Below are positions 4,213-21,920 of a stretch of DNA of 25,413 nt, one piece after another. Made by a program: the position numbers and the translations under genes. Origin of the DNA: a virus. The stretch lies in IMG/VR virus record IMGVR_UViG_3300046471_000161, positions 1 to 25,413 of that record; one strand, given 5' to 3'. Numbering within the stretch: the stretch's first letter is position 1; the number at the start of each line of letters is the position of its first letter. The notes under the pieces are model-generated. The model was not told the origin of the DNA. It was given only the letters and a program-made list of their open reading frames with translations, and did no database searches.

Positions 4213-4533
4213 CTACTCGTCGACTTGAATGCCTGCCTTCTTTGCCAAGAACCTGGTGTACAAACCACCGGCTACATCGGCACCAATCACCGCAATAACG
4301 ATGCCCAGTCCGGCGGCCAGGTACAGGTTGTTCCAGAGCGCCATTGTTAGCAGCAAAGTGGCCATGCCCAAGAGGCCGGACGCGAGAAAACGCAACGCTA
4401 CTCGCTGCAAGATCTGTCGTAGTCCGAGGTCGCTGCCAGACGCTCTCAGCATCTCGCCCGACAGGCCCGCCATGCTCAACAGAATCAACAGCCAAAGGGG
4501 TACATCCGCGAGCGCCTGTTGTTCCGTGCTCAT
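4213..4533 (-). CDS. Phage holin
   Basis: The 106-aa protein begins MSTEQQALADVPLWLLILLS. Hydrophobic stretches lie at about residues 12-25, 48-66 and 70-92, giving two to three membrane segments, and the end is short and charged (LAKKAGIQVDE). That is the pattern of Pseudomonas phage holins, which form the inner-membrane holes at lysis. ATG 4533 follows GAGGACTACAA, a good ribosome site. It lies just downstream of tandem terminators and a candidate late promoter and upstream of the presumed cos region, as S does in lambda, but without adjacent R or Rz. A longer overlapping frame starting at 4546 has no membrane character and is a shadow. Confidence 0.82.
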   Translation of the reverse strand: MSTEQQALADVPLWLLILLSMAGLSGEMLRASGSDLGLRQILQRVALRFLASGLLGMATLLLTMALWNNLYLAAGLGIVIAVIGADVAGGLYTRFLAKKAGIQVDE

Positions 4534-4611
4534 TTGTAGTCCTCAAATAGGTTCGGCCTCCATGTCACTGTCATCCGCTAAAAGCAAAGAGCCAGGCATG
4601 GGACCGAAAAC

Positions 4612-4639
4612 GAAAAAGCCCCGCACGAGGGCGGGGCTT
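4612..4639 (-). terminator. Rho-independent terminator (minus strand), tR'-like
   Basis: A 9-bp stem AAGCCCCGC/GCGGGGCTT (4616-4624 with 4631-4639) with a 6-nt loop is followed on the minus strand by five T. It precedes the holin gene in the direction of late transcription, a position where a Q-type antiterminator would act. Confidence 0.85.
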
Positions 4640-4652
4640 ATAAATTGGTATG

Positions 4653-4680
4653 AAAAAACCCGACTCGATGGCCGGGTTTT
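4653..4680 (-). terminator. Second tandem terminator (minus strand)
   Basis: The stem AAAACCCG/CGGGTTTT (4655-4662 with 4673-4680) ends on the minus strand in a run of six T. It lies immediately before the terminator at 4612-4639; tandem terminators here imply that late expression depends on antitermination. Confidence 0.85.
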
Positions 4681-4749
4681 GAAAGCGTCTCGCTGCGTTC
4701 ACAGCAGTTCACGCTGCTATGAAACCAGAGTTATTCCGCGCGGAAAACC

Positions 4750-4779
4750 TTTATTTTCCGGTGCCTTCACGAATGACAA
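4750..4779 (-). promoter_or_regulatory. Candidate late promoter (pR'-like)
   Basis: On the minus strand, TTGTCA (4779-4774, 5/6 to consensus) is followed after 18 bp by AATAAA (4755-4750, 4/6). It lies 27 bp past the stop of the cargo gene and about 70-140 bp ahead of the two terminators, matching lambda pR'-tR' layout. A short inverted repeat CGGAAAA/TTTTCCG (4741-4760) overlaps the -10. The -10 match is only moderate. Confidence 0.4.
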
Positions 4780-4805
4780 CAAAATCTTTCGCCAAGAATT
4801 AACCT

Positions 4806-6326
4806 CTATGACTCAGAAAACCTCTCAGAAATTTCCTCACGCATTTCCTTGAGAATATCTAACAGCGGGATCGGCCTACCTCCTTTTTTTGAAAACTCTT
4901 GGATATGCATCTCAAAATTAAATTTCTGAGTGCGTGGATTTGAATCTATTTGCTTCGCATACTCCAAGAACTCTACAAGCCCCACCCTTCCGGCACTTAC
5001 AAGATCCATCAGTTCTTCAAACTCATGAATTGTCAGAAAATACATATTCTCTATTGGAATTTGGTGATCCGACGAGTAAGCGCTCCGAACTTTATCAAGC
5101 TCTGCACCTCCAACAACATTTGCGAACGCCATCCCATTTCCAACATATAGCTCTTTGTATGTCACCACCAAAAGATAATTATTGGCGCGCTGACAAATAA
5201 CCGGATTCTTCACGCTGACTTTAGGCAATCTCGAAATGACTTCATGACCCTGCTCAAAGGCTTTAATCAGAGATGTTTTAACCGCTCGACGCATATCCAT
5301 CTTTCGAACCGCGGCCATCCCCCCTTGAGCCATTTCCACTCCCTTCGCATCAATAAGAACATTTGATTCGTCGTCCGCAATCAAAAAATCTATTACCCCT
5401 CCAACACCTGGTAGTTCTTTAATTAACTCGCTCTCTATCGCTATTGGAAGCTTCGTTTTTTTTAGCCACTCACCGACATACTTTTCAAAAGACTTTCCGA
5501 ACGGGTTATTAAAAGCGTTAACATCGTCCGACTTCAAAAGATCGAATACGAAATGCCCCAATGAACGACTCAGAACGGCAGGAGACACGCACCAATATTT
5601 ACCGTCGACCTTGACTAAAGGAAACTTCAAAAAAGGGGTTTGATGTAAAAATTCTTCGGGGCTCCGTCCATCAGTATCGGCGTCCCTCAAGGCTTTATTC
5701 AAATCATTTACATCGATTGAAATTGCTCGAAGATATGCATCAACGTCATACGCTTCAAATGGTGGACAAAGTGCAAAGAGATAATCCCGGCTTAAAATTC
5801 TGCCCTGACTTTCCACTGCAGCCAACAGCACAAACGAAATTCTAAGGAACGTTTCAATAGGGAGGCCGACCAGTTTCAAAAAACGCGTTTTGAAATAATG
5901 GTTACTTGGAACTCTAGAAAAAATTATTTCCTGCCTAGCCAAATCAACAAGCTTACCTTCTGCCTGATAAAAAAACTGCTGGTATGCAAGAGCCCTCATG
6001 AAGAGTCGCACCTCTTCGTACTCATCAGGCATCTTATCACTATCAGTTAGATCCAAGACTTTTTGCAACAGCGCTAGGTACTGCACACTATTAATGGAAG
6101 GTCGCGGCAAAAAGCTATTAGCGAGTTCATCCGAGTAAACCCACTTTATTAGAAGCAGCACTAGCCAAGGTTGCCGAGCAGCTTTGTCTTGTTTATTTTT
6201 TGAAGGAGCATAAAGATAACCAAGCGACGCATCCAATATGCTTAGGGGATAATACTTTCTAAACTCACCCTGAATTTCTCGAAAACCTTTTTCAAACGCC
6301 GCAAGCGACTCCATTGCCTTACTCAT
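4806..6326 (-). CDS. Unknown cargo protein with PD-(D/E)XK nuclease motif
   Basis: This 506-aa protein starts at ATG 6326 (MSKAMESLAAFEKGF) behind the strong site GAGGGGAG; a Met 33 bases upstream lacks one. The N-terminal ~280 residues look mainly helical and match no family I recognise. Around residues 310-329 is GVIDFLIADDESNVLIDAKG. The Asp313...Asp326-Ala-Lys328 pattern is the classic PD-(D/E)XK nuclease core, with acidic residues just upstream (ESELIKE) that could supply the first motif residue. The gene is clearly richer in A+T than its neighbours and sits alone between the Q-like gene and the late promoter, a site that commonly carries acquired genes. A defence or superinfection-exclusion nuclease is the best guess; function is not established by sequence. 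Confidence 0.85.
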   Translation of the reverse strand: MSKAMESLAAFEKGFREIQGEFRKYYPLSILDASLGYLYAPSKNKQDKAARQPWLVLLLIKWVYSDELANSFLPRPSINSVQYLALLQKVLDLTDSDKMPDEYEEVRLFMRALAYQQFFYQAEGKLVDLARQEIIFSRVPSNHYFKTRFLKLVGLPIETFLRISFVLLAAVESQGRILSRDYLFALCPPFEAYDVDAYLRAISIDVNDLNKALRDADTDGRSPEEFLHQTPFLKFPLVKVDGKYWCVSPAVLSRSLGHFVFDLLKSDDVNAFNNPFGKSFEKYVGEWLKKTKLPIAIESELIKELPGVGGVIDFLIADDESNVLIDAKGVEMAQGGMAAVRKMDMRRAVKTSLIKAFEQGHEVISRLPKVSVKNPVICQRANNYLLVVTYKELYVGNGMAFANVVGGAELDKVRSAYSSDHQIPIENMYFLTIHEFEELMDLVSAGRVGLVEFLEYAKQIDSNPRTQKFNFEMHIQEFSKKGGRPIPLLDILKEMREEISERFSES

Positions 6327-6355
6327 GCTGCTCCCCTCAACGCGATGAAAACGAT

Positions 6356-6381
6356 CCACGAAATGTACATTAAAATCGTGG
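6356..6381. repeat. Inverted repeat upstream of the PD-(D/E)XK cargo gene
   Basis: CCACGA (6356-6361) and TCGTGG (6376-6381) flank an A+T-rich centre that includes the palindrome AATGTACATT. It lies 30-55 bp before the start codon and could be an operator. The 123-bp gap 6327-6449 has A+T-rich -10-like words but no convincing full promoter by eye. Confidence 0.45.
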
Positions 6382-6449
6382 AAAGATCGTCATTGGTTGA
6401 AGGTAAGCATTGGCTTTCAGAAATAATGTATTTTAAGAACGCATCTACA

Positions 6450-6839
6450 CTATGCGATCAAGTCGACATGGCTTATGGCGCAATCGATCCAGGCTGATCC
6501 AGCCCTAACCAGTTCACGCGCCTTACCCTCACTTATGCCGAAGTGTCTACCAACTCTAACCATCGGCCACTTAGCACCAAAATAGAGCCAAACTACATCT
6601 CCCATCTGCTGATCACGGTGCGCTAGTCTCGCAACGGCATGATCAATAGCTACAGCCCAATCATCAGTAATGCAATAATTTTTGGTTTCGGATACCTGCG
6701 CAATCGCCTGACGCATCAGAGCTAATGTCGGGGACGTATAGCCTGGCACACCCATCCCATCCATCCTCCACCAGCCCCACTGCTCCAGTAAGTATTCGGT
6801 GTCTCCCAATGGTCGGCCAGCCGGCTTACGAATCATCAT
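6450..6839 (-). CDS. Q-type late antitermination protein (PF06530-like)
   Basis: The 129-aa protein has features I recognise from the Phage_antitermQ family: an early LEQWGWWRMDG segment, then GVPGYTSPTLALMRQAI, then DDWAVAIDHAVARLA. It ends in a C-terminal helix-turn-helix (WPMVRVGRHFGISEGKARELVRAG). It would bind near the late promoter and let RNA polymerase read through the terminators at 4612-4680. It is the last core gene of the early operon, four bases after the upstream stop. ATG 6839 and the next ATG at 6836 are both possible; GGGGATTGAAGGA precedes them. Confidence 0.8.
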   Translation of the reverse strand: MMIRKPAGRPLGDTEYLLEQWGWWRMDGMGVPGYTSPTLALMRQAIAQVSETKNYCITDDWAVAIDHAVARLAHRDQQMGDVVWLYFGAKWPMVRVGRHFGISEGKARELVRAGSAWIDCAISHVDLIA

Positions 6840-7164: not shown

Positions 7165-8449
7165 GATTTGAAACCTCGCCTATGGTTGTTTCTTCAATGG
7201 CCTTGCAGGCCTTATGGTCTGCGGCTCCCAGCGAATTACCAGAATCTTCAAATCTAAAGCCGGTCAATCCATGAATCGCTGCAAAGCCTTTCTGATCTAG
7301 ATGTGCGTGCCACTGTTCGAGGGCATCACGCTTGCGGCTCATCACGTCCGACTGGATATAAACCTTCACGTTGTGGCCCATCGCGTGGTTGATCAGCAGC
7401 TCGCCAATCAGGTGGTCGATGCCGAGATCTGCCCAGCCAGTGCGGGCCAACTTGCGCAGGTCGTGACTGGTCCACTCGCCCTGCCCCAACCGACGAAACA
7501 CGGCGCAGCCCTGAGCCTCGCCCAGTGACTTGCCGTTGCGCGCCGGGAACAGACACTGGCCCTCATAGCCTCGGGCGTATTGACCTTCGCGGTACCGGGT
7601 CAGCAGCGTGCACACTTGCTCCGTCAGGGGAAGTTGATGCTCGACACCGGTTTTCGTGTTCTCGGCCGGGATGAACCATTCCCGCTCGGCCAGGCTGATA
7701 TGCGACCAGCGCGCCATACGGGTTTCACCGATCCGCGTGCCGTGGCAGAGCATCATCAGCGCAAGCATCGAATCCAGCGGCTCGGTGGCCATGACGTCGG
7801 CCAGTTGCCCGAGGAGACCTTCCAACTGAACACCGCGAAGCCGAGACGGCTTGATGCCGACCTTCGCCTTGGAGAAATCGTTGAACCGGATAGCAGCCAT
7901 CGGGTTGGGCGTGATCATCCCCAGCTTGGCCGCCTGCCGGAATGCCAAGGCCAACAGCTGGAACGCGGAACGCACGTAGTCGATGGAAACCGTCTCCTGC
8001 AGCGGCCACATCAACAGGGTGTCGAGTGCGGGCTTGTCGACGCCGATCAGGGGCAGCTCACCGAGACGCGGCTTCAGGTGGCACTTGATGATCGAGGCGC
8101 CGGTGTTTTTGCGCTTGGTCGACAGATTGCGATCGCGCGACATGCGATCAGCGAACCAGTCCAGCAGTTCGCCAACAGCGTTCCACTTCGACAGGCTCGC
8201 GCCCTCCCCGGCGGCCAGACGCAGCCGAAGCGACGGCAGCGCCGCTACAACCTGTTTGTGAGTCAGCTCGGGGAAGGTGCCGATGGGATTCCACTTGCCC
8301 TTCAACACCAGGTACCACGAACCACCGGTTCGAGCCTTGTTGAAACGCAGGTACAGGCCCTTATTCTCAATGTCGCGTACGTCCTGTACGGTGCCGGCCA
8401 CTTGGCGTTTGATCTCAGCTTCGGTGATCTTCACCGCGGCGGTACTCAT
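7136..8449 (-). CDS. Second tyrosine recombinase, inside the lytic operon
   Basis: The 437-aa product begins MSTAAVKITEAEIKRQV at ATG 8449, which overlaps the previous stop (ATGA) and follows GAAGGGGG. A DUF4102-like arm-binding region (LYLRFNKARTGGSWYLVLKG) comes first, then a SAM-like core-binding domain. The catalytic domain has HGTRIGE with Arg239, SHDLRKLART with His329/Arg332, INHAMGHN, and VYIQSD with candidate nucleophile Tyr364. All key residues are present, so it should be active. It is a different protein from the integrase at 23292. Being in the early lytic operon, far from the attachment site, it may serve dimer resolution or a lost module rather than lysogeny. I recall similar genes at this place in other Pseudomonas prophages. 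Confidence 0.88.
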   Translation of the reverse strand: MSTAAVKITEAEIKRQVAGTVQDVRDIENKGLYLRFNKARTGGSWYLVLKGKWNPIGTFPELTHKQVVAALPSLRLRLAAGEGASLSKWNAVGELLDWFADRMSRDRNLSTKRKNTGASIIKCHLKPRLGELPLIGVDKPALDTLLMWPLQETVSIDYVRSAFQLLALAFRQAAKLGMITPNPMAAIRFNDFSKAKVGIKPSRLRGVQLEGLLGQLADVMATEPLDSMLALMMLCHGTRIGETRMARWSHISLAEREWFIPAENTKTGVEHQLPLTEQVCTLLTRYREGQYARGYEGQCLFPARNGKSLGEAQGCAVFRRLGQGEWTSHDLRKLARTGWADLGIDHLIGELLINHAMGHNVKVYIQSDVMSRKRDALEQWHAHLDQKGFAAIHGLTGFRFEDSGNSLGAADHKACKAIEETTIGEVSNHAKRASAWL

Positions 8450-8748
8450 GCGGCCCCCTTCACGGTGAGAATTCCAGCCATGATCAGGGCTTCGTGGGTT
8501 TCGGCGATGGCGCGCGGCACGTCCTGCCAGTCGATCTCGCCGGCGGCGCGGCCGTCGATCACGTCGTGGCAAGCGCTGCACGCGTACACCGCCACGGTGT
8601 CAAAGCCTTTCATGCCCATACCCTTCTGCCCGCAAGGCAGATGCGCGAGGACGGTGGTTTCTGGATTGTGATTGCAGATGCCTGGCATCCGGACGGTGCA
8701 CTCTTGGCCATCGGCCGAGGCGCGAAGCTTCTTCGAGCTCACTCGCAT
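8446..8748 (-). CDS. DUF1364 family protein (predicted HNH-like nuclease)
   Basis: The 100-aa protein begins MRVSSKKLRASADGQECTVR and has CNHNPETTVLAHLP, then YACSACHDVIDGR. Paired Cys and His residues (CNH...H, CSACHD) are the DUF1364 signature, an HNH/zinc-finger-like fold suggested to act in phage recombination. The ATG at 8748 overlaps the preceding gene by 10 bases, and the TGA overlaps the recombinase ATG. An in-frame Met at 8802 gives an Arg-rich, uncharacteristic extension and is rejected. Confidence 0.85.
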   Translation of the reverse strand: MRVSSKKLRASADGQECTVRMPGICNHNPETTVLAHLPCGQKGMGMKGFDTVAVYACSACHDVIDGRAAGEIDWQDVPRAIAETHEALIMAGILTVKGAA

Positions 8749-8948
8749 GCAGGCTTCCCCGTCACGACGTCTACGACTTCGTAGGTCCCAGGCCACATCC
8801 ACGAGCCATAACGCTTGGCCATGGCCTCGTCGGCAAACAGCGCCAGCGCGTGATCAGGCGGCGAACTCAAATCGACCTTGAACGAGCAGCAGAACACTGC
8901 GAATCGATAGGTATCGATTTCGGGTACAGCAAGGCGACGGTCACACAC
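8739..8948 (-). CDS. Conserved-looking 69-aa phage protein, GTG start
   Basis: The reading frame from GTG 8948 gives VCDRRLAVPEIDTYRFAVFC and ends VVDVVTGKPACE. The GTG overlaps the stop of the P-like gene by 8 bases and has GGAGGGC upstream. Its end overlaps DUF1364 by 10 bases, so it fits the packed operon. An ATG at 9044 would place 96 bases inside the previous gene with no ribosome site. I do not recognise the family; it looks soluble, with no motif. Confidence 0.7.
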   Translation of the reverse strand: MCDRRLAVPEIDTYRFAVFCCSFKVDLSSPPDHALALFADEAMAKRYGSWMWPGTYEVVDVVTGKPACE

Positions 8949-9612
8949 GTTCTGCCCTCCCCGCACGCATCGCGCGCAAGTTGGCCAAAGCGGTGTTACC
9001 CACTTCGGGGTTGCGATCAAGCTTAGGCGCAGCAAGTTCAGCAATAGGGATAGAGCCTAGGGGTTCACCCTTCCAGATCTTCCTGCACTGGGCCAAGTAG
9101 TGACGCTCGAAGCTCGCCAAACCAAGTTCACGCGAGAGCAATGGCAGGCCATGAAAACCAGCGGCCGCAGTAGCGTGGTAGACCGCAGCGTGCATCCACT
9201 TGGCCGAATCACGCATAGCGGGATGGCAGTTGCGAAGACCTTGGGCGTATGCCTTTTCGACGCTCGGCAATCCCAGCCCTTCAGGGGCAAAGCACCAGCT
9301 GACGAAAACGCCGGGCGCCGGAACAAATGCAGACTTACTCGCACTCAGGACGCGCATGCCGTGGTCGATTTGCTCCATTCGATTGATCCCGGAGCGCATG
9401 AACTCGCCGAGCCATTCAAGCTTCGAGGCGTTCATCACGGCCTCAGTCGGCCAAGACTGGCGCCATGCACCACAGGCACCGCGAAGACGCAGGAACAAAT
9501 CGTCGATGACAACTTTGGTCGATGGATCAACCTCGGCCACTACTGGGTCGGACGTCGGCACGTAGGTAGGGTCGGTTCGCCGTTTGGCAATAAGATCGCG
9601 TGCAGATTTCAT
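8941..9612 (-). CDS. Replication protein P-like (helicase loader)
   Basis: The 223-aa protein starts at ATG 9612, which overlaps the O-like gene stop (ATGA) and follows AAGGGGG. It carries LFLRLRGACGAWRQSWPTE, LEWLGEFMRSGINRMEQIDHG and a long helical C-terminal half. This is the layout of lambda P/gp14-type loaders that bring host DnaB helicase to the O-bound origin. Gene order O-P supports the call more than sequence identity, which I cannot measure. Confidence 0.72.
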   Translation of the reverse strand: MKSARDLIAKRRTDPTYVPTSDPVVAEVDPSTKVVIDDLFLRLRGACGAWRQSWPTEAVMNASKLEWLGEFMRSGINRMEQIDHGMRVLSASKSAFVPAPGVFVSWCFAPEGLGLPSVEKAYAQGLRNCHPAMRDSAKWMHAAVYHATAAAGFHGLPLLSRELGLASFERHYLAQCRKIWKGEPLGSIPIAELAAPKLDRNPEVGNTALANLRAMRAGRAERV

Positions 9613-12596: not shown

Positions 12597-12626
12597 TTGA
12601 CTGTGTTTTTGTAGTTGCTCTATGAT
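12597..12626 (+). promoter_or_regulatory. Strong sigma70 promoter for the two-gene unit after cI
   Basis: TTGACT (12597-12602, 5/6) and TATGAT (12621-12626, 5/6) are 18 bp apart, with the start expected near 12633. It gives the unit expression independent of pRM in the lysogen. Confidence 0.8.
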
Positions 12627-12649
12627 TCTCTCAAGCCTTAGAGAGAATC
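12624..12649. promoter_or_regulatory. Perfect 9-bp inverted repeat over -10, start site and ribosome site
   Basis: GATTCTCTC (12624-12632) and GAGAGAATC (12641-12649) flank AAGCCTTA. The left arm covers half of the -10 box and the right arm contains the AGAGAG ribosome site of the gene at 12655. It could be the operator of the downstream HTH protein, giving autorepression, or an RNA hairpin that hides the ribosome site. Confidence 0.75.
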
Positions 12650-12654
12650 CCCGC

Positions 12655-13293
12655 ATGAGCGCCCAGTTATCCGATTCCCAAATCAGCAATCTGATCAAAC
12701 CCTACGAACAAGTCATCGCAGAAGCCGTACTCAAAGGCTGGAAGCAATGGCTTGAGGTGCCAAATCGAGCTCAGTTCTATAACAGAACTCGGGCAAACGT
12801 CGTTTGGGACTATACCGTTGGCGCTCTAGAAGCGGCGCTTGACCCGCTTCCTGGTATCCACGTTAACCGAGCAGGAAACACCTGTATTTTCATGATTGGT
12901 CAGCAATTAGCCTTTCGCTTCAAAAAAGGCGACGAAAAGGGCTTTAGCAGCAATTACCCGACGCCTATGGCTCTTGCCTTCCACGACCCCGAACAGCAAG
13001 TTCTGGGTATTCCAGAGGCAGTAAAGACCGAGATTATTTACATTCTCAACAAACTTGAAACCGAGATTTTTCAAGTCCGCATGGTTCGCAGGGATGGGGA
13101 GTCGGTAGCTTGGTCTCATCCAATCTATGAGCGACCAGTTGCACCTGTTGAAGCTATCCCAAGCGGATTGCCCGCAGTGCCATCGAAGGACTCGCACACC
13201 GCCCAGCCCGCGAAAAGGCGCCGAGCAATGGTCAAGAAAGGCCTGGCACCAGTTAAACCTACTGAATTTAAACCATCCCGGCCGTCGTCATGA
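12655..13293 (+). CDS. Unknown 212-aa protein, partner of an HTH/zinc-protease gene
   Basis: The product starts at ATG 12655 (MSAQLSDSQISNLIKPYEQV) behind AGAGAG. Its first ~165 residues look like a compact alpha/beta domain (ALDPLPGIHVNRAGNTCIFM, QLAFRFKKGDEKGFSSNYPT). The last ~50 residues are Pro/Lys/Arg-rich and likely disordered. I do not recognise the family. The stop overlaps the next ATG (ATGA), so the two genes are co-translated and probably work together. It lies in the rexAB-like slot between cI and pL. By arrangement it could be a toxin or effector controlled by the downstream protein; this is inference. Confidence 0.82.
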   Translation: MSAQLSDSQISNLIKPYEQVIAEAVLKGWKQWLEVPNRAQFYNRTRANVVWDYTVGALEAALDPLPGIHVNRAGNTCIFMIGQQLAFRFKKGDEKGFSSNYPTPMALAFHDPEQQVLGIPEAVKTEIIYILNKLETEIFQVRMVRRDGESVAWSHPIYERPVAPVEAIPSGLPAVPSKDSHTAQPAKRRRAMVKKGLAPVKPTEFKPSRPSS

Positions 13294-14354
13294 CCAACAC
13301 ATTTAACCCTGAGATGCTTCAGCTGGCCCGGCAGTTTCGCGGTTTCAGCCAAAGCGCTCTATCCAAATCCATGAATATCACACAAGGCTACCTATCAAAG
13401 ATTGAAAATGGATTGATGGAGCCTGCCGAGGAGATGGTTGAAGCTTTCTGCAAGGGACTTTCATTTCCTAGGGAATATTTTTTTAACCAAGATCGGGTCT
13501 ATGGGCTGCCGGTTAGCGTTCATGCGTATCGCAAAAAGGCTACTGTCCCGCAGAAGACGCTTGACGCCATCCAAGCTGAAATGAATCTGCGCATCATGCA
13601 CTACAGAAAGCTTCTTAAATCCGTCGACCTCGCGAAGGATTATGAGCTCCCGTATCTAGACATCGACCAGTACAATGGCGATACCGATGAGATTGCATTC
13701 CTTGTCAGAAGATCGTGGATGATCCCTGACGGACCGATCAAAAATCTCGCCGATTTCGTGGAACGCGCCGGCGTTTTGATATTTGTTTGCGATTTTCCTG
13801 CTGGAAAAATTGACGGCGTAACCCTTGCCATTAATGGGATGCCACCTTGTATTTTTCTGAGCAAAAATCAATCCGCAGATAGAATGAGATTTTCACTTGC
13901 TCATGAGCTCGGCCATTTAGTGATGCATCGACAACCCAGCCCTACAATGGAGGACGAGGCGAACAAATTCGCAGCCGCGTTACTGATGCCAGAAAAAGAT
14001 ATTTTCTACCAGTTGAAGAATATCAGCATCCAGTCGCTGGCCGCACTGAAGCCTGTATGGAAAGTATCTATGGGCGCCTTGCTCTATCGGGCGGGCACGA
14101 TCGGCGCAATTACAAAGTCCCAGAGTGATTATATGTGGAGACAAATTGGCAGCCTCGGCTATCGACTGAGGGAGCCCGCCGAACTGGATTTTCCGCATGA
14201 GAAGGCTCATCTGACTTCAGAAATCTTGGAGCTACACATGGAGGACCTGGGGTATTCGCTTGAAGATCTAATGAGCATCCTTGGTTTGGTGCCTGAAGAC
14301 TTTGGCAATTTGTATAATTTTAAGCAAAAACCACGCCTTAGCATCGTGAAATAA
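13290..14354 (+). CDS. HTH (XRE) plus ImmA/IrrE-type zinc metallopeptidase (COG2856/DUF955)
   Basis: The 354-aa protein begins MTNTFNPEMLQLARQFRGFS. Residues ~10-60 are an XRE helix-turn-helix (SQSALSKSMNITQGYLSKIE). The central region ends in AHELGH at residues 204-209, the HExxH zinc site (His205, Glu206, His209), followed by DEANKFAAALLMP, which supplies the third ligand region. ImmA cleaves the phage repressor ImmR in ICEBs1, and IrrE/PprI cleaves DdrO; fused HTH-COG2856 proteins also occur in toxin-antitoxin-like pairs. Here it probably regulates its own operon and responds to stress or infection. The start overlaps the partner's stop. Terminator-like hairpins follow. Confidence 0.88.
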   Translation: MTNTFNPEMLQLARQFRGFSQSALSKSMNITQGYLSKIENGLMEPAEEMVEAFCKGLSFPREYFFNQDRVYGLPVSVHAYRKKATVPQKTLDAIQAEMNLRIMHYRKLLKSVDLAKDYELPYLDIDQYNGDTDEIAFLVRRSWMIPDGPIKNLADFVERAGVLIFVCDFPAGKIDGVTLAINGMPPCIFLSKNQSADRMRFSLAHELGHLVMHRQPSPTMEDEANKFAAALLMPEKDIFYQLKNISIQSLAALKPVWKVSMGALLYRAGTIGAITKSQSDYMWRQIGSLGYRLREPAELDFPHEKAHLTSEILELHMEDLGYSLEDLMSILGLVPEDFGNLYNFKQKPRLSIVK

Positions 14355-17548: not shown

Positions 17549-18226
17549 TCAACCAATTGATCGTTTAAAAGTAACATTGGCTATCCTGCCAGAACCTTCA
17601 ATCATTTCTGCCCTCATTATGTATTTCTCAATCGATTCCTTTCCGACCCCGTAAACGTACTTGATTGAAAACAAATAATCCTTATCAGATTTATTCATGG
17701 CGACTACAAACTCATGCGATTTACCAGCAGCAATTGCACTGCAATCGTAAACCTGCTGAACACCGATAAAGACAACAACACTTTCAGCATTCTTTCCGAT
17801 ATTCTCCATTTTGATCTTCACATCCATGTCTTTTCCTGACGCGCCCGGAACTCTTGCGGAGAGCTTGATATTTGGACGGCTTTCTAACTCCATAATCTCT
17901 CGATTATATCTTACGTTTTCCAGCTCCGTTTCCAATTGTCTCCCAGCTATTCCAACCATTTCTTTCTGCTGGTCTACCGAATTTTTTAGCTCTTTCGCCT
18001 GTAACTGCAATGCCTCTGAGCTGAGCTTCAACTCGCGACCCTGCTGTAGATACCCGAGTACCAACCACAGAAAGGCTATTGGCCCAAACACCCCTGCGAG
18101 AAAATCACCTATCGCGTTTAGCTCAAGAGCTGGAAGTGTTGCACGCTTCCAATAGACGAGAACGGCCACACCCACAAGATAAACGCCCGTAACCACGCCG
18201 CCTACAGCTTCTGATCTGAACTTCAT
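17549..18226 (-). CDS. Two-TM membrane protein with coiled coil (cargo)
   Basis: ATG 18226 (MKFRSEAVGGVVTGVYLVGV) has GGAG at a good distance; a Met four codons earlier does not. Two membrane helices lie at about residues 9-26 and 38-60. A coiled coil follows (ELKLSSEALQLQAKELKNSV to LETELENVRYN), then a ~110-residue soluble domain with beta character (SRPNIKLSARVPG, AESVVVFIGVQQVY). The layout suits an inner-membrane sensor or exclusion protein; no family is recognised. It is A+T-rich and opposes the pL operon. Confidence 0.78.
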   Translation of the reverse strand: MKFRSEAVGGVVTGVYLVGVAVLVYWKRATLPALELNAIGDFLAGVFGPIAFLWLVLGYLQQGRELKLSSEALQLQAKELKNSVDQQKEMVGIAGRQLETELENVRYNREIMELESRPNIKLSARVPGASGKDMDVKIKMENIGKNAESVVVFIGVQQVYDCSAIAAGKSHEFVVAMNKSDKDYLFSIKYVYGVGKESIEKYIMRAEMIEGSGRIANVTFKRSIG

Positions 18227-18372
18227 AACTCGCTCCATCGAATGATCGCGAGATAGTAGATGCTATATCAACCACCTGGAAGCGTTTTGCCATCGCTCCA
18301 CTACCCCATTCGACCACGGAGGTGGCGCCTCACTGGAGATAATCCATAAGCCACTACCACGCCCCGCAGAGA

Positions 18373-19228: not shown

Positions 19229-19927
19229 TTAAATCGAACGCAGAAGTTTAAGTCTCAACGTTCTCTCTACAACAGAAAACTCCTGATTTAAATCAGCTAG
19301 GTATTCATCATCGCCACCACCGTCCTCATAGAGTATATCTCTTTGCTTCCCCAATATTTGGGAGTATGCCTGCCGCATATCCTCAGTCTGCTTGGAATCA
19401 ATCGTAATTAGGTACGCTCTAACGTGAATAAAAAGCTCTCTCTCCAACCTGAACAATGGCTGGCAAAGAGATTTTACCTCACCGTCCCAAACCGCCTCGG
19501 ATTCGAGAACATTGGCGAGTAACTTAGACTTCACATCACCCAGTTTTTCAAATCGCTCTCCATAAGCTTTTGCGACTATTTCTGTATTCTCGTAAACAAC
19601 ATAGTTTCCACCTTCTTTTCTACCTTCATATCCAAGAATCATAGGATTTCTGACATGCCCTATTGCCTCGCGATACCTATAAAGTTCAACCAGTAGCCTT
19701 CTTGCAAGGTCATGATCAGCGGTTGCAATGCCTTGATTCCTCCATTCACCAATACCTCGGAAGGCAACGATCACTGCCGCGACAGTAACCAGTACCCCGC
19801 CGATATCGAACAGATCATGAACACTATCCACTTTGAAAAAGTCAGTTGCTACCCGTATCTGAGCCCAAAGAACTCCGCAGCAGAACAATAAGAAACACCC
19901 CAGCCAAACCACCCAGTCCCGACGCAT
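19229..19927 (-). CDS. Two-TM membrane protein with long helical domain (cargo)
   Basis: ATG 19927 (MRRDWVVWLGCFLLFCCGVL) follows GGGGAGTGGGTT; an upstream Met at 19984 overlaps the divergent gene's start and is unlikely. Helices at about 5-24 and 40-58 (FDIGGVLVTVAAVIVAFRG) are membrane segments. The remaining ~170 residues are soluble and helical (ADHDLARRLLVELYRYREAI). The hairpin-plus-helical layout is like bacterial proteins of unknown function in accessory DNA. It is A+T-rich. It overlaps nothing and is divergent from the DUF2786 gene, 47 bp away. Confidence 0.77.
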   Translation of the reverse strand: MRRDWVVWLGCFLLFCCGVLWAQIRVATDFFKVDSVHDLFDIGGVLVTVAAVIVAFRGIGEWRNQGIATADHDLARRLLVELYRYREAIGHVRNPMILGYEGRKEGGNYVVYENTEIVAKAYGERFEKLGDVKSKLLANVLESEAVWDGEVKSLCQPLFRLERELFIHVRAYLITIDSKQTEDMRQAYSQILGKQRDILYEDGGGDDEYLADLNQEFSVVERTLRLKLLRSI

Positions 19928-19974
19928 AACCCACTCCCCTGTAGATCCCGGAACTATACCGGCGAGGATCCCCG

Positions 19975-20751
19975 ATGTCCGCACAACAGATCGACGAAAA
20001 GAAACTCGAGCGCGCGATTCGCAAGATCAAGCACTGCCTGGCATTGGCGCAGAGTGTCAACGAGAACGAGGCTGCAACGGCGCTTCGGCAGGCACAGGCG
20101 CTGATGCGCGAGTACCGGCTGACCGAAATGGATGTGAAGCTGAGCGACGTCGGCGAAGTCGAGTCGCAATTCTACCGGGCCGAACGCCTGCCGACGTGGG
20201 AGCGGAACCTGAGCGGTGCAGTTGCCCACGTTTTCGGGTGCACCTCTTTGTACGGTCGGCAGTACTGCAGTGAAAAGGATCGAATCATCGCCCGCACTTC
20301 CTTCGTGGGGGTGACACCTGCACAGCACATCGCGCTGTATGCGTTTGAAGCGCTGCTGACAAAGCTAAAATTTGCCCGCAAGGAATACGTGGCAATGGTG
20401 CGTTCGGGTGTCTACCGCAGCTCCTTCTCAGCCGAGACGGCAGGCGACCACTTCGCCCTCGCATGGGTCAACGAGGTTTACGGAAAGCTTAGCGCCCTTG
20501 TACCGAAAGACGAAGACGATATCACGTCAGCAAGCGATGGCCGCGACATCATCGCCGTCGAAGCTCAAGACAAGACACTGATCACCGAGTACCTTGCAAA
20601 CAAAGGAGTGGGCAAAGCCCGTAAAGCGCGCGATGTCGACATCGACCTTAATGCGCAAATCGCGGGAATGCTTGCCGGCCGCAGGGTTGATCTACATGCC
20701 GGCATTGCGCGCGGCTGCGACGAAACCCTAACTCTATCCGTAACCGCCTGA
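19975..20751 (+). CDS. DUF2786-domain phage protein
   Basis: The 258-aa product from ATG 19975 has GAGGATCC upstream. Residues ~10-50 (KLERAIRKIKHCLALAQSVN, EAATALRQAQALMREYRLTE) are a clear DUF2786 domain, common in phage and plasmid proteins and of unknown biochemistry. The remainder (SFVGVTPAQHIALYAFEALL, YRSSFSAETAGDHFALAWVN) is the family's usual C-terminal half. It is a core gene of the pL operon, in the region where lambda carries recombination genes; no exo/bet pair is seen. Confidence 0.87.
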   Translation: MSAQQIDEKKLERAIRKIKHCLALAQSVNENEAATALRQAQALMREYRLTEMDVKLSDVGEVESQFYRAERLPTWERNLSGAVAHVFGCTSLYGRQYCSEKDRIIARTSFVGVTPAQHIALYAFEALLTKLKFARKEYVAMVRSGVYRSSFSAETAGDHFALAWVNEVYGKLSALVPKDEDDITSASDGRDIIAVEAQDKTLITEYLANKGVGKARKARDVDIDLNAQIAGMLAGRRVDLHAGIARGCDETLTLSVTA

Positions 20752-21063: not shown

Positions 21064-21846
21064 TTATGACCGATAGGGAATGTCGGAAAAAACGATAGGC
21101 AAATTGCGCAAACCGCAGGCGTAGAGAAGAGATTCCAAAGACCTTCCTGCGAGTTCTTGATTTGAGACTGGACCAACGTGGATCGCTAATACGCTCTCAA
21201 TCGGAAAATCGATTTCCATATATGGAATTAGGTAATCACCGCGTGCGCGGTGAAGCACACCTGAACGCTCATAGTCGCTTTTACCAATAATGCGGACTTC
21301 GTGCTCGGCTTCAAAATGATTGTTTTTAATAATACTTATCCCAGCAGTAAACGCCTGCAAATGATCTGTCGGAGTATTTAGTTTTGACGTCATATAAACG
21401 GAAGATTTATCCACCAAACTCCTTATCAACCCTTCTGAATGATATTTTTTATCTACAGAATCATAAATACATTCATAAAGAGCGTGCTTCTTCTCCAGCT
21501 CAGACCTTGAAAACTCAATAGCGAAATTCCCGTAAGCCCTCCATTGACTTAATAAATTTCTAGCCCTACTAAAAGAACAAGTGTACAAATTGTTGCTGTG
21601 TGCGAAATCTTTATATGCTTGTAACACACCCTTAGTATAAGCAAGTCCTGCCTTGAACCGCTCTATCTCAGGCTCAGCATCAAAGGCCCACTCATCAGCA
21701 CGCTTTGATACCACCGCCAGTCCTTCCTGGAACTCTTGAGAGTCATTCAGAAACCCAATATTTGTCAGCCACAGTTTCTTGCTTTTGATAATTGCGGCGA
21801 CCGCGGATATGTCCGTGTAATGGTACAAAGAATCATTATTAGACAT
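21064..21846 (-). CDS. DUF2971 family protein (cargo)
   Basis: The 260-aa protein begins MSNNDSLYHYTDISAVAAII at ATG 21846, behind GGAGCGCTTA. The opening LYHYTDISAVAAIIKSKKLW followed by FLNDSQEF, later YTCSFSRARNLLSQWRAYGN and HEVRI, is the DUF2971 signature. The HYT...I..K.LW start resembles the NAD-binding face of ADP-ribosyltransferase folds such as DarT; this link is inference. DUF2971 genes are frequent in accessory and defence regions. The gene is A+T-rich and faces against the operon. A plausible promoter (TTGGTT, 18 bp, TAGGTT) lies in the 74-bp divergent gap. Confidence 0.85.
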   Translation of the reverse strand: MSNNDSLYHYTDISAVAAIIKSKKLWLTNIGFLNDSQEFQEGLAVVSKRADEWAFDAEPEIERFKAGLAYTKGVLQAYKDFAHSNNLYTCSFSRARNLLSQWRAYGNFAIEFSRSELEKKHALYECIYDSVDKKYHSEGLIRSLVDKSSVYMTSKLNTPTDHLQAFTAGISIIKNNHFEAEHEVRIIGKSDYERSGVLHRARGDYLIPYMEIDFPIESVLAIHVGPVSNQELAGRSLESLLYACGLRNLPIVFSDIPYRS

Positions 21847-21920
21847 TAAGCGCTCCATTTATTGCCCAATTAAAATTAACCTAGCCTATCTGATTTTGCT
21901 AAACCAAACGAGGTTGTCCC

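Follow-up and report, generated by a model that had tools for sequence, protein, structure and literature searches.

A GAPS1-Family Gene with a Predicted PD-(D/E)XK Nuclease Domain in the Variable Slot between Q and Holin of a Pseudomonas-Type Lambda-Like Phage

Introduction

GAPS1 is a named protein family already tied to anti-phage defence. A GAPS1-like protein has been described in the Klebsiella prophage ST437-OXA245phi4.1 in the Phold paper (PMC12774648), which cites Mahata et al. (2024, Nat Microbiol 9:3268) for GAPS1, and a meeting report states that many phages are blocked by the GAPS1 of K. pneumoniae (PMC12908700). Two further kinds of described system come close to the locus reported here: the prophage hotspots of P2, P4, K139-like and Bacillus elements (PMC9122126; for P2 also PMC9519451), and Tai/Ati of phage phi80 (PMC11364771). 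We analysed a 25.4-kb virus record, called the window throughout (the whole stretch of DNA, 25,413 nucleotides), in which an earlier note, made from the sequence alone, had singled out one A+T-rich gene as a plausible defence nuclease.

Results

The Gene and the Borders of Its Slot

The gene is an intact frame of 506 codons, with its ATG at 6326–6324 and its stop codon at 4808–4806; the earlier note had placed it exactly, and its strand is minus. It lies in a slot whose parts are as follows.

6450–6839, minus strand: antiterminator Q, which borders the slot upstream (Pfam Phage_antitermQ, 8.8e-10; phrog_79, 5.8e-29)
6331–6338, minus strand: ribosome binding site GAGGGGAG (from the sequence; the same letters stand in loci L002 and L004)
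4806–6326, minus strand: GAPS1-family gene, 506 aa (NCBIfam NF047931; AlphaFold model)
4748–6449, no strand: variable cargo slot, from the Q stop codon to the conserved block (from the comparison intervals)
4534–4747, minus strand: conserved 213-bp block before holin (matched in 80 of 80 comparison intervals)
4734–4745, no strand: palindrome TTCCGCGCGGAA, marking the slot's downstream border (unchanged in 45 of 83 intervals, with no more than one mismatch in 72 of 83)
About 4653–4680, minus strand: terminator-like hairpin 1, AAAACCCG...CGGGTTTT (from the sequence; conserved)
About 4616–4639, minus strand: terminator-like hairpin 2 (from a scan; conserved)
4213–4533, minus strand: holin, downstream border (Pfam Phage_holin_3_5, 1.2e-22)

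In the order of transcription, the integrase gene is followed by a 106-aa phage protein, Q, the GAPS1-family gene, holin, the small terminase, and what we take, from reading its sequence, to be the large terminase (TerL). The GC content of the GAPS1-family gene is 42.5% (40.5% at third codon positions, GC3), compared with 60.6% (GC3 72.2%) for TerL and 60.1% (GC3 74.1%) for integrase. Much of the earlier description of the locus stands: the ribosome site is present, the gene is A+T-rich next to phage neighbours of about 60% GC, both Pfam and PHROGs identify the upstream gene as antitermination Q, two conserved hairpins lie in tandem between the gene and holin, and the slot in the window contains a single cargo gene. 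With dN/dS of about 0.10 against two copies that are ~95% identical, the protein is maintained under purifying selection, and this value, together with full-length homologs in many genomes, shows that the reading frame is not a chance one.

The conserved block begins at about 4747 with the palindrome and contains both hairpins, and among the matches listed, 71–80 of 80 comparison intervals match over nearly its whole length. This position and conservation point to the Q-dependent late-promoter (pR') region, within which the palindrome is possibly a Q-binding or late-promoter element. A simple promoter scan found no sigma-70-like promoter upstream of the GAPS1-family gene, and no terminator was recognised between Q and the gene, which has the sense orientation, so that it may be read through from Q during lytic growth. 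No RNA families were found within the window.

Several other features of the window deserve mention. A protein with a helix-turn-helix and an HExxH metallopeptidase-like motif (13290–14354, plus strand; PADLOC RmrA match, 3e-65) is encoded in the rightward half, directly behind an open reading frame at 12622–13293 (plus strand). In another low-GC patch, an A+T-rich frame at 21064–21858 (minus strand) encodes 264 aa and weakly resembles PDC-S31 of PADLOC (E 0.018); it is perhaps a second accessory gene. Two A+T-rich frames, at 17549–18238 and 19229–19984 (both minus strand), have N termini resembling membrane segments and are possibly further accessory genes; neither has a match in PADLOC or the PDB.

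Membership of the GAPS1 Family

By its sequence, the 506-aa protein belongs to the GAPS1 family: it matches NCBIfam NF047931 (antiphage_GapS1) with 456.2 bits (E 1.2e-136) over the whole model (positions 1–455 of 455), against a curated cut-off of 320 bits. The homolog in ST437-OXA245phi4.1 shares 28% identity over 96% of the query. The description of the protein as uncharacterised has therefore to be dropped, as the family bears a name and its role as an anti-phage system has been published (NF047931; PMC12774648; PMC12908700), and the suggested role in defence gains from the curation of the family as antiphage GapS1. In PHROGs the protein falls into an unnamed family (3.6e-55), while Pfam (2025) and PADLOC-DB (2023) do not recognise it; only weak hints of SfsA-, NERD-, and RmuC-type nucleases appeared, and sequence searches of the PDB, whether started from the protein or from a profile of 23 rows, gave no match. 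At the level of the gene, what we report extends a known family to a new carrier.

A PD-(D/E)XK Fold with Conserved Active-Site Residues

The C-terminal domain (residues ~269–432) has the features of a PD-(D/E)XK nuclease, and the codons of its core are located as follows.

5388–5390, minus strand: codon of catalytic Asp313 (D in 30 of 30 homologs)
5343–5351, minus strand: codons 326–328, D326-A-K328, the (D/E)-x-K motif (D or E at 326 and K328 in 30 of 30 homologs)
5250–5252, minus strand: codon of Gln359, the second-helix glutamine of the nuclease core (Q in 30 of 30 homologs)

Asp313, Asp326, and Lys328 are found at the residue numbers first proposed for them, and the alignment of 30 homologs, mostly 14–35% identical to the window protein, shows the triad in every one, with D313, K328, and Q359 invariant and position 326 occupied by D or E. 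A further acidic residue, E281, is conserved in 28 of 30. In an alignment of 23 sequences, nine columns are invariant, three of them being D313, K328, and Q359 and the others P53, R111, Q117, Q121, F149, and P236. A profile built from the whole set of 23 was too diverse to scan the collection with, and a narrower one was used there.

The AlphaFold model (16-row alignment; pLDDT 79.5, pTM 0.82) places a helix at 269–290, strands at 295–297, 314–318, and 321–328, a helix at 342–369, and a strand at 382–389, an order (helix-strand-strand-strand-helix-strand) that is that of the PD-(D/E)XK core. D313 adjoins the second strand, and D326 and K328 close the third, while the loop 331–345 beside the active site is poorly modelled. 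Foldseek searches of the PDB with the model return Upx (9wuf; E 7e-5, probability 1.00) as the top match and the nickase N.BspD6I as the second, with the R.BspD6I small subunit (probability 0.98), VC1899, Cdn1, and Holliday junction resolvase lower in the ranking; among viral models the matches are PD-(D/E)XK-type proteins, including a phage PD-(D/E)XK protein with probability 0.97. Because the TM-scores are modest, these matches support the fold class and not a close relationship. Conserved residues, order of elements, and nuclease matches thus agree with the PD-(D/E)XK assignment made from the motif, model and matches alike showing a nuclease fold, and we infer that the domain is a metal-dependent nuclease.

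The N-terminal domain (residues ~1–235) is all-helical. Its best-conserved stretch, with R111, Q117, and Q121, coincides with the region where the model is least confident (111–123), and the half modelled alone is weak (pLDDT 69.7, pTM 0.45). A structure search with that weak model gave no solved match, in keeping with the earlier remark that this half resembled nothing recognisable. The helical domain is probably a sensor or binder of the trigger, or a regulator.

Exchange of Cargo between Q and Holin

We compared relatives in the viral collection, using the best 80 of 146 matches to holin and the best 80 of 317 matches to Q, and found at least 126 loci with both genes, giving at least 83 distinct Q–holin intervals. 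Across these, the DNA from Q to the presumed late-promoter block is exchanged completely: aside from a single match, which falls within the GAPS1 coding sequence, none of the 80 comparison intervals has the 200 bp that follow Q in common with the window. At least 82 intervals hold one or more open reading frames of 100 aa or longer, called mechanically and so perhaps including small spurious frames, and among the matches listed, the main cargo falls into at least 51 unrelated families and is oriented along the phage transcript in 52 of 82 cases and against it in 30. In one locus (L113) the slot is nearly empty, with 53 variable bases. The proposal that this is an insertion point is upheld by the comparison, as 80 of 80 intervals share the 3' block and the cargo differs. 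Such an arrangement would allow cargo between Q and the late promoter to be swapped without breaking the early or the late operon.

Known defence systems are found in the slot. It holds a complete two-gene Dazbog system in L133 (DzbA, 5e-139; DzbB, 2e-27), a PARIS-like pair in L130 (AriA-like, 4e-33; AriB-like, 5e-10), and in L152 an NsnA/PD-T4-2_A protein (9e-72, 4e-33) with a weak match to PD-T4-2_B behind it, and other slots match OLD/Gabija/Septu-type ATPases and the GmrSD, ApeA, NACHT, and DUF4238 families. There is non-defence cargo too, such as a MerR regulator. PADLOC matches were obtained for ~17 of 61 slot families and, at the same loci, ~7 of 61 families outside the slot, the latter mostly repressor-like or exonuclease-like; these counts are approximate because matches are not listed for each member. 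Both the known systems and the approximate counts support the view of the slot as a defence hotspot. Two antisense cargo families recur in the intervals numbered L064–L219, one of 343 aa in at least 11 loci and one of 481 aa in at least 5; representatives of both lack a PADLOC match, and we regard these families as good candidates for unknown defence genes.

Distribution of the GAPS1 Gene

The window shares the position of its GAPS1 gene, between Q and holin, with L002, L003, L004, and L042, and the contig of L043 begins within the gene and runs on to holin; the five complete copies from the slot group together in a single clade (support 100/99). Elsewhere, the gene adjoins integrase in P2-like Klebsiella phages, stands beside genes of an integrative conjugative element (ICE) in Klebsiella, and occurs on plasmids (in two cases close to recombinase genes) and on Pseudomonas contigs that lack the Q and holin flanks. 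No neighbouring gene common to the Q-slot, P2-like phage, ICE, plasmid, and chromosomal copies was seen, which suggests that the gene works singly, with no constant partner. In a draw of genomes from the genus of Pseudomonas proteolytica (genome G007), 14 of 400 had a match, 6 of them above the cut-off, and in a draw from its class, 6 of 369 and 2, respectively, both draws containing G007 itself, which had been picked for carrying the gene.

Some relatives stand apart. The homolog on one viral contig (L063) is split into two frames (7962–8378 and ~8493–9305) and is probably a pseudogene. A 5.9-kb human-faecal "phage" scaffold (MT837992.1; L034, 884–2422) carries GAPS1 beside integrase-like frames, and this copy differs little from the Pseudomonas proteolytica gene (L008). 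Genomes of the genus Pseudomonas also encode distant relatives of 526–528 aa, ~14% identical and with an E-L/M-K motif (L025, L026, and L027), perhaps a sister family outside the curated NF047931 model.

Discussion

The explanation that we favour, with high confidence, is that the window encodes a single-gene anti-phage nuclease of the GAPS1 family, produced by the lysogen against rival phages and lodged in a defence hotspot. A temperate lambda-like phage of Pseudomonas would carry the gene as accessory cargo, expressed most likely in the lysogen, where the window copy would protect the cell; the C-terminal domain would cut a nucleic acid substrate, the helical N-terminal domain would sense the trigger or regulate the cutting, and rivals would be stopped by cutting of their DNA or by death of the infected cell. 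That the slots of sister phages hold known defence systems favours a role in defence.

The gene might instead serve the lytic cycle, as a delayed-early nuclease made after Q that breaks host DNA or processes the phage's own DNA and plays no part in defence. Such a role would fit a gene that follows Q immediately in the sense orientation, as our scan recognised neither a terminator between the two nor a promoter of the gene's own; among the matches listed, however, most sister phages lack the gene and carry unrelated genes in the slot, and 30 of 82 main slot genes oppose the lytic transcript, whereas full-length homologs in P2-like phages, ICE, plasmids, and chromosomes share no common lytic context and the family is curated as antiphage. 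We consider a purely lytic function improbable. Less probable still is a catalytically dead binding protein that has retained the nuclease fold, for which one could point to the poorly modelled loop next to the active site, but all four core residues are conserved in the 30 homologs, down to 14% identity.

Within the anti-phage explanation itself, the target may differ. No modification partner gene is present beside the GAPS1-family gene, and without a modification enzyme the protein must spare its own cell through a trigger or through specificity for certain structures. As nothing of this kind marks self DNA and unregulated cutting would harm the host, and as the helical N-terminal half may serve as a sensor, the protein may well cause abortive infection by attacking the DNA or RNA of the host, and not be a cutter of invader DNA; we give this a little under an even chance, and it is compatible with the GAPS1-family defence reading preferred here, under which the protein is about as likely to cut the invader's DNA directly as to act by abortive killing.

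For the slot as a whole, a broader proposal seems to us evenly balanced: that the Q/late-promoter interval of lambda-like Pseudomonas phages is a large, undescribed hotspot with dozens of families, whose unannotated cargo, such as the two recurrent antisense families, would consist mostly of unknown anti-phage systems, perhaps swapped by recombination through the conserved block. Our literature search, which covered few subscription papers and preprints, found no description of a hotspot at the Q border of Pseudomonas prophages, and the available part of Rousset et al. does not list the Q/late-promoter slot among its prophage hotspots. The slot, from the Q stop codon to the palindrome and tandem terminators, is compact and easily searched, its contents can be cloned and screened singly, and it holds known as well as many unrecognised candidate defence genes.

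Comparison with Known Systems

The closest solved structure is that of Upx (PDB 9wuf), an anti-phage protein for which our literature search found no structure paper. It is only a distant match, given a TM-score of 0.34: the two share 13% identity, and Upx has 1212 aa, compared with 506 in the window protein. Sequence homology to Upx along the protein was not seen: the likeness is one of fold, with no PDB sequence match.

Like Tai/Ati of the lambda-like phage phi80, the window gene would be a prophage defence gene of a lambda-like phage, but protein and mechanism differ, that of phi80 concerning tail assembly. In phi80 a known self-protection (counter-defence) gene stands under Q-controlled late transcription (PMC11364771), whereas none was found at the window locus.

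The resemblance to GAPS1 itself is the strongest, with a full-length match above the curated cut-off, a single gene, and a relative previously noted in a Klebsiella prophage (PMC12774648). The window copy differs in its carrier, a Pseudomonas-type phage, and in its place between Q and the late promoter, and the five slot members make up a clade separate (100/99) from other GAPS1. The family takes its name from Gamma-Mobile-Trio elements; the neighbours identified at the window copy are phage genes. GAPS1 thereby gains a new carrier, the Pseudomonas-type lambda-like phages, and support for its nuclease site at the level of residues.

With the P2, P4, K139-like, and Bacillus hotspots (PMC9122126; PMC9519451), the slot shares a fixed site with swapped, defence-rich cargo; here the site is the Q/late-promoter border, and its carriers are lambda-like Pseudomonas phages.
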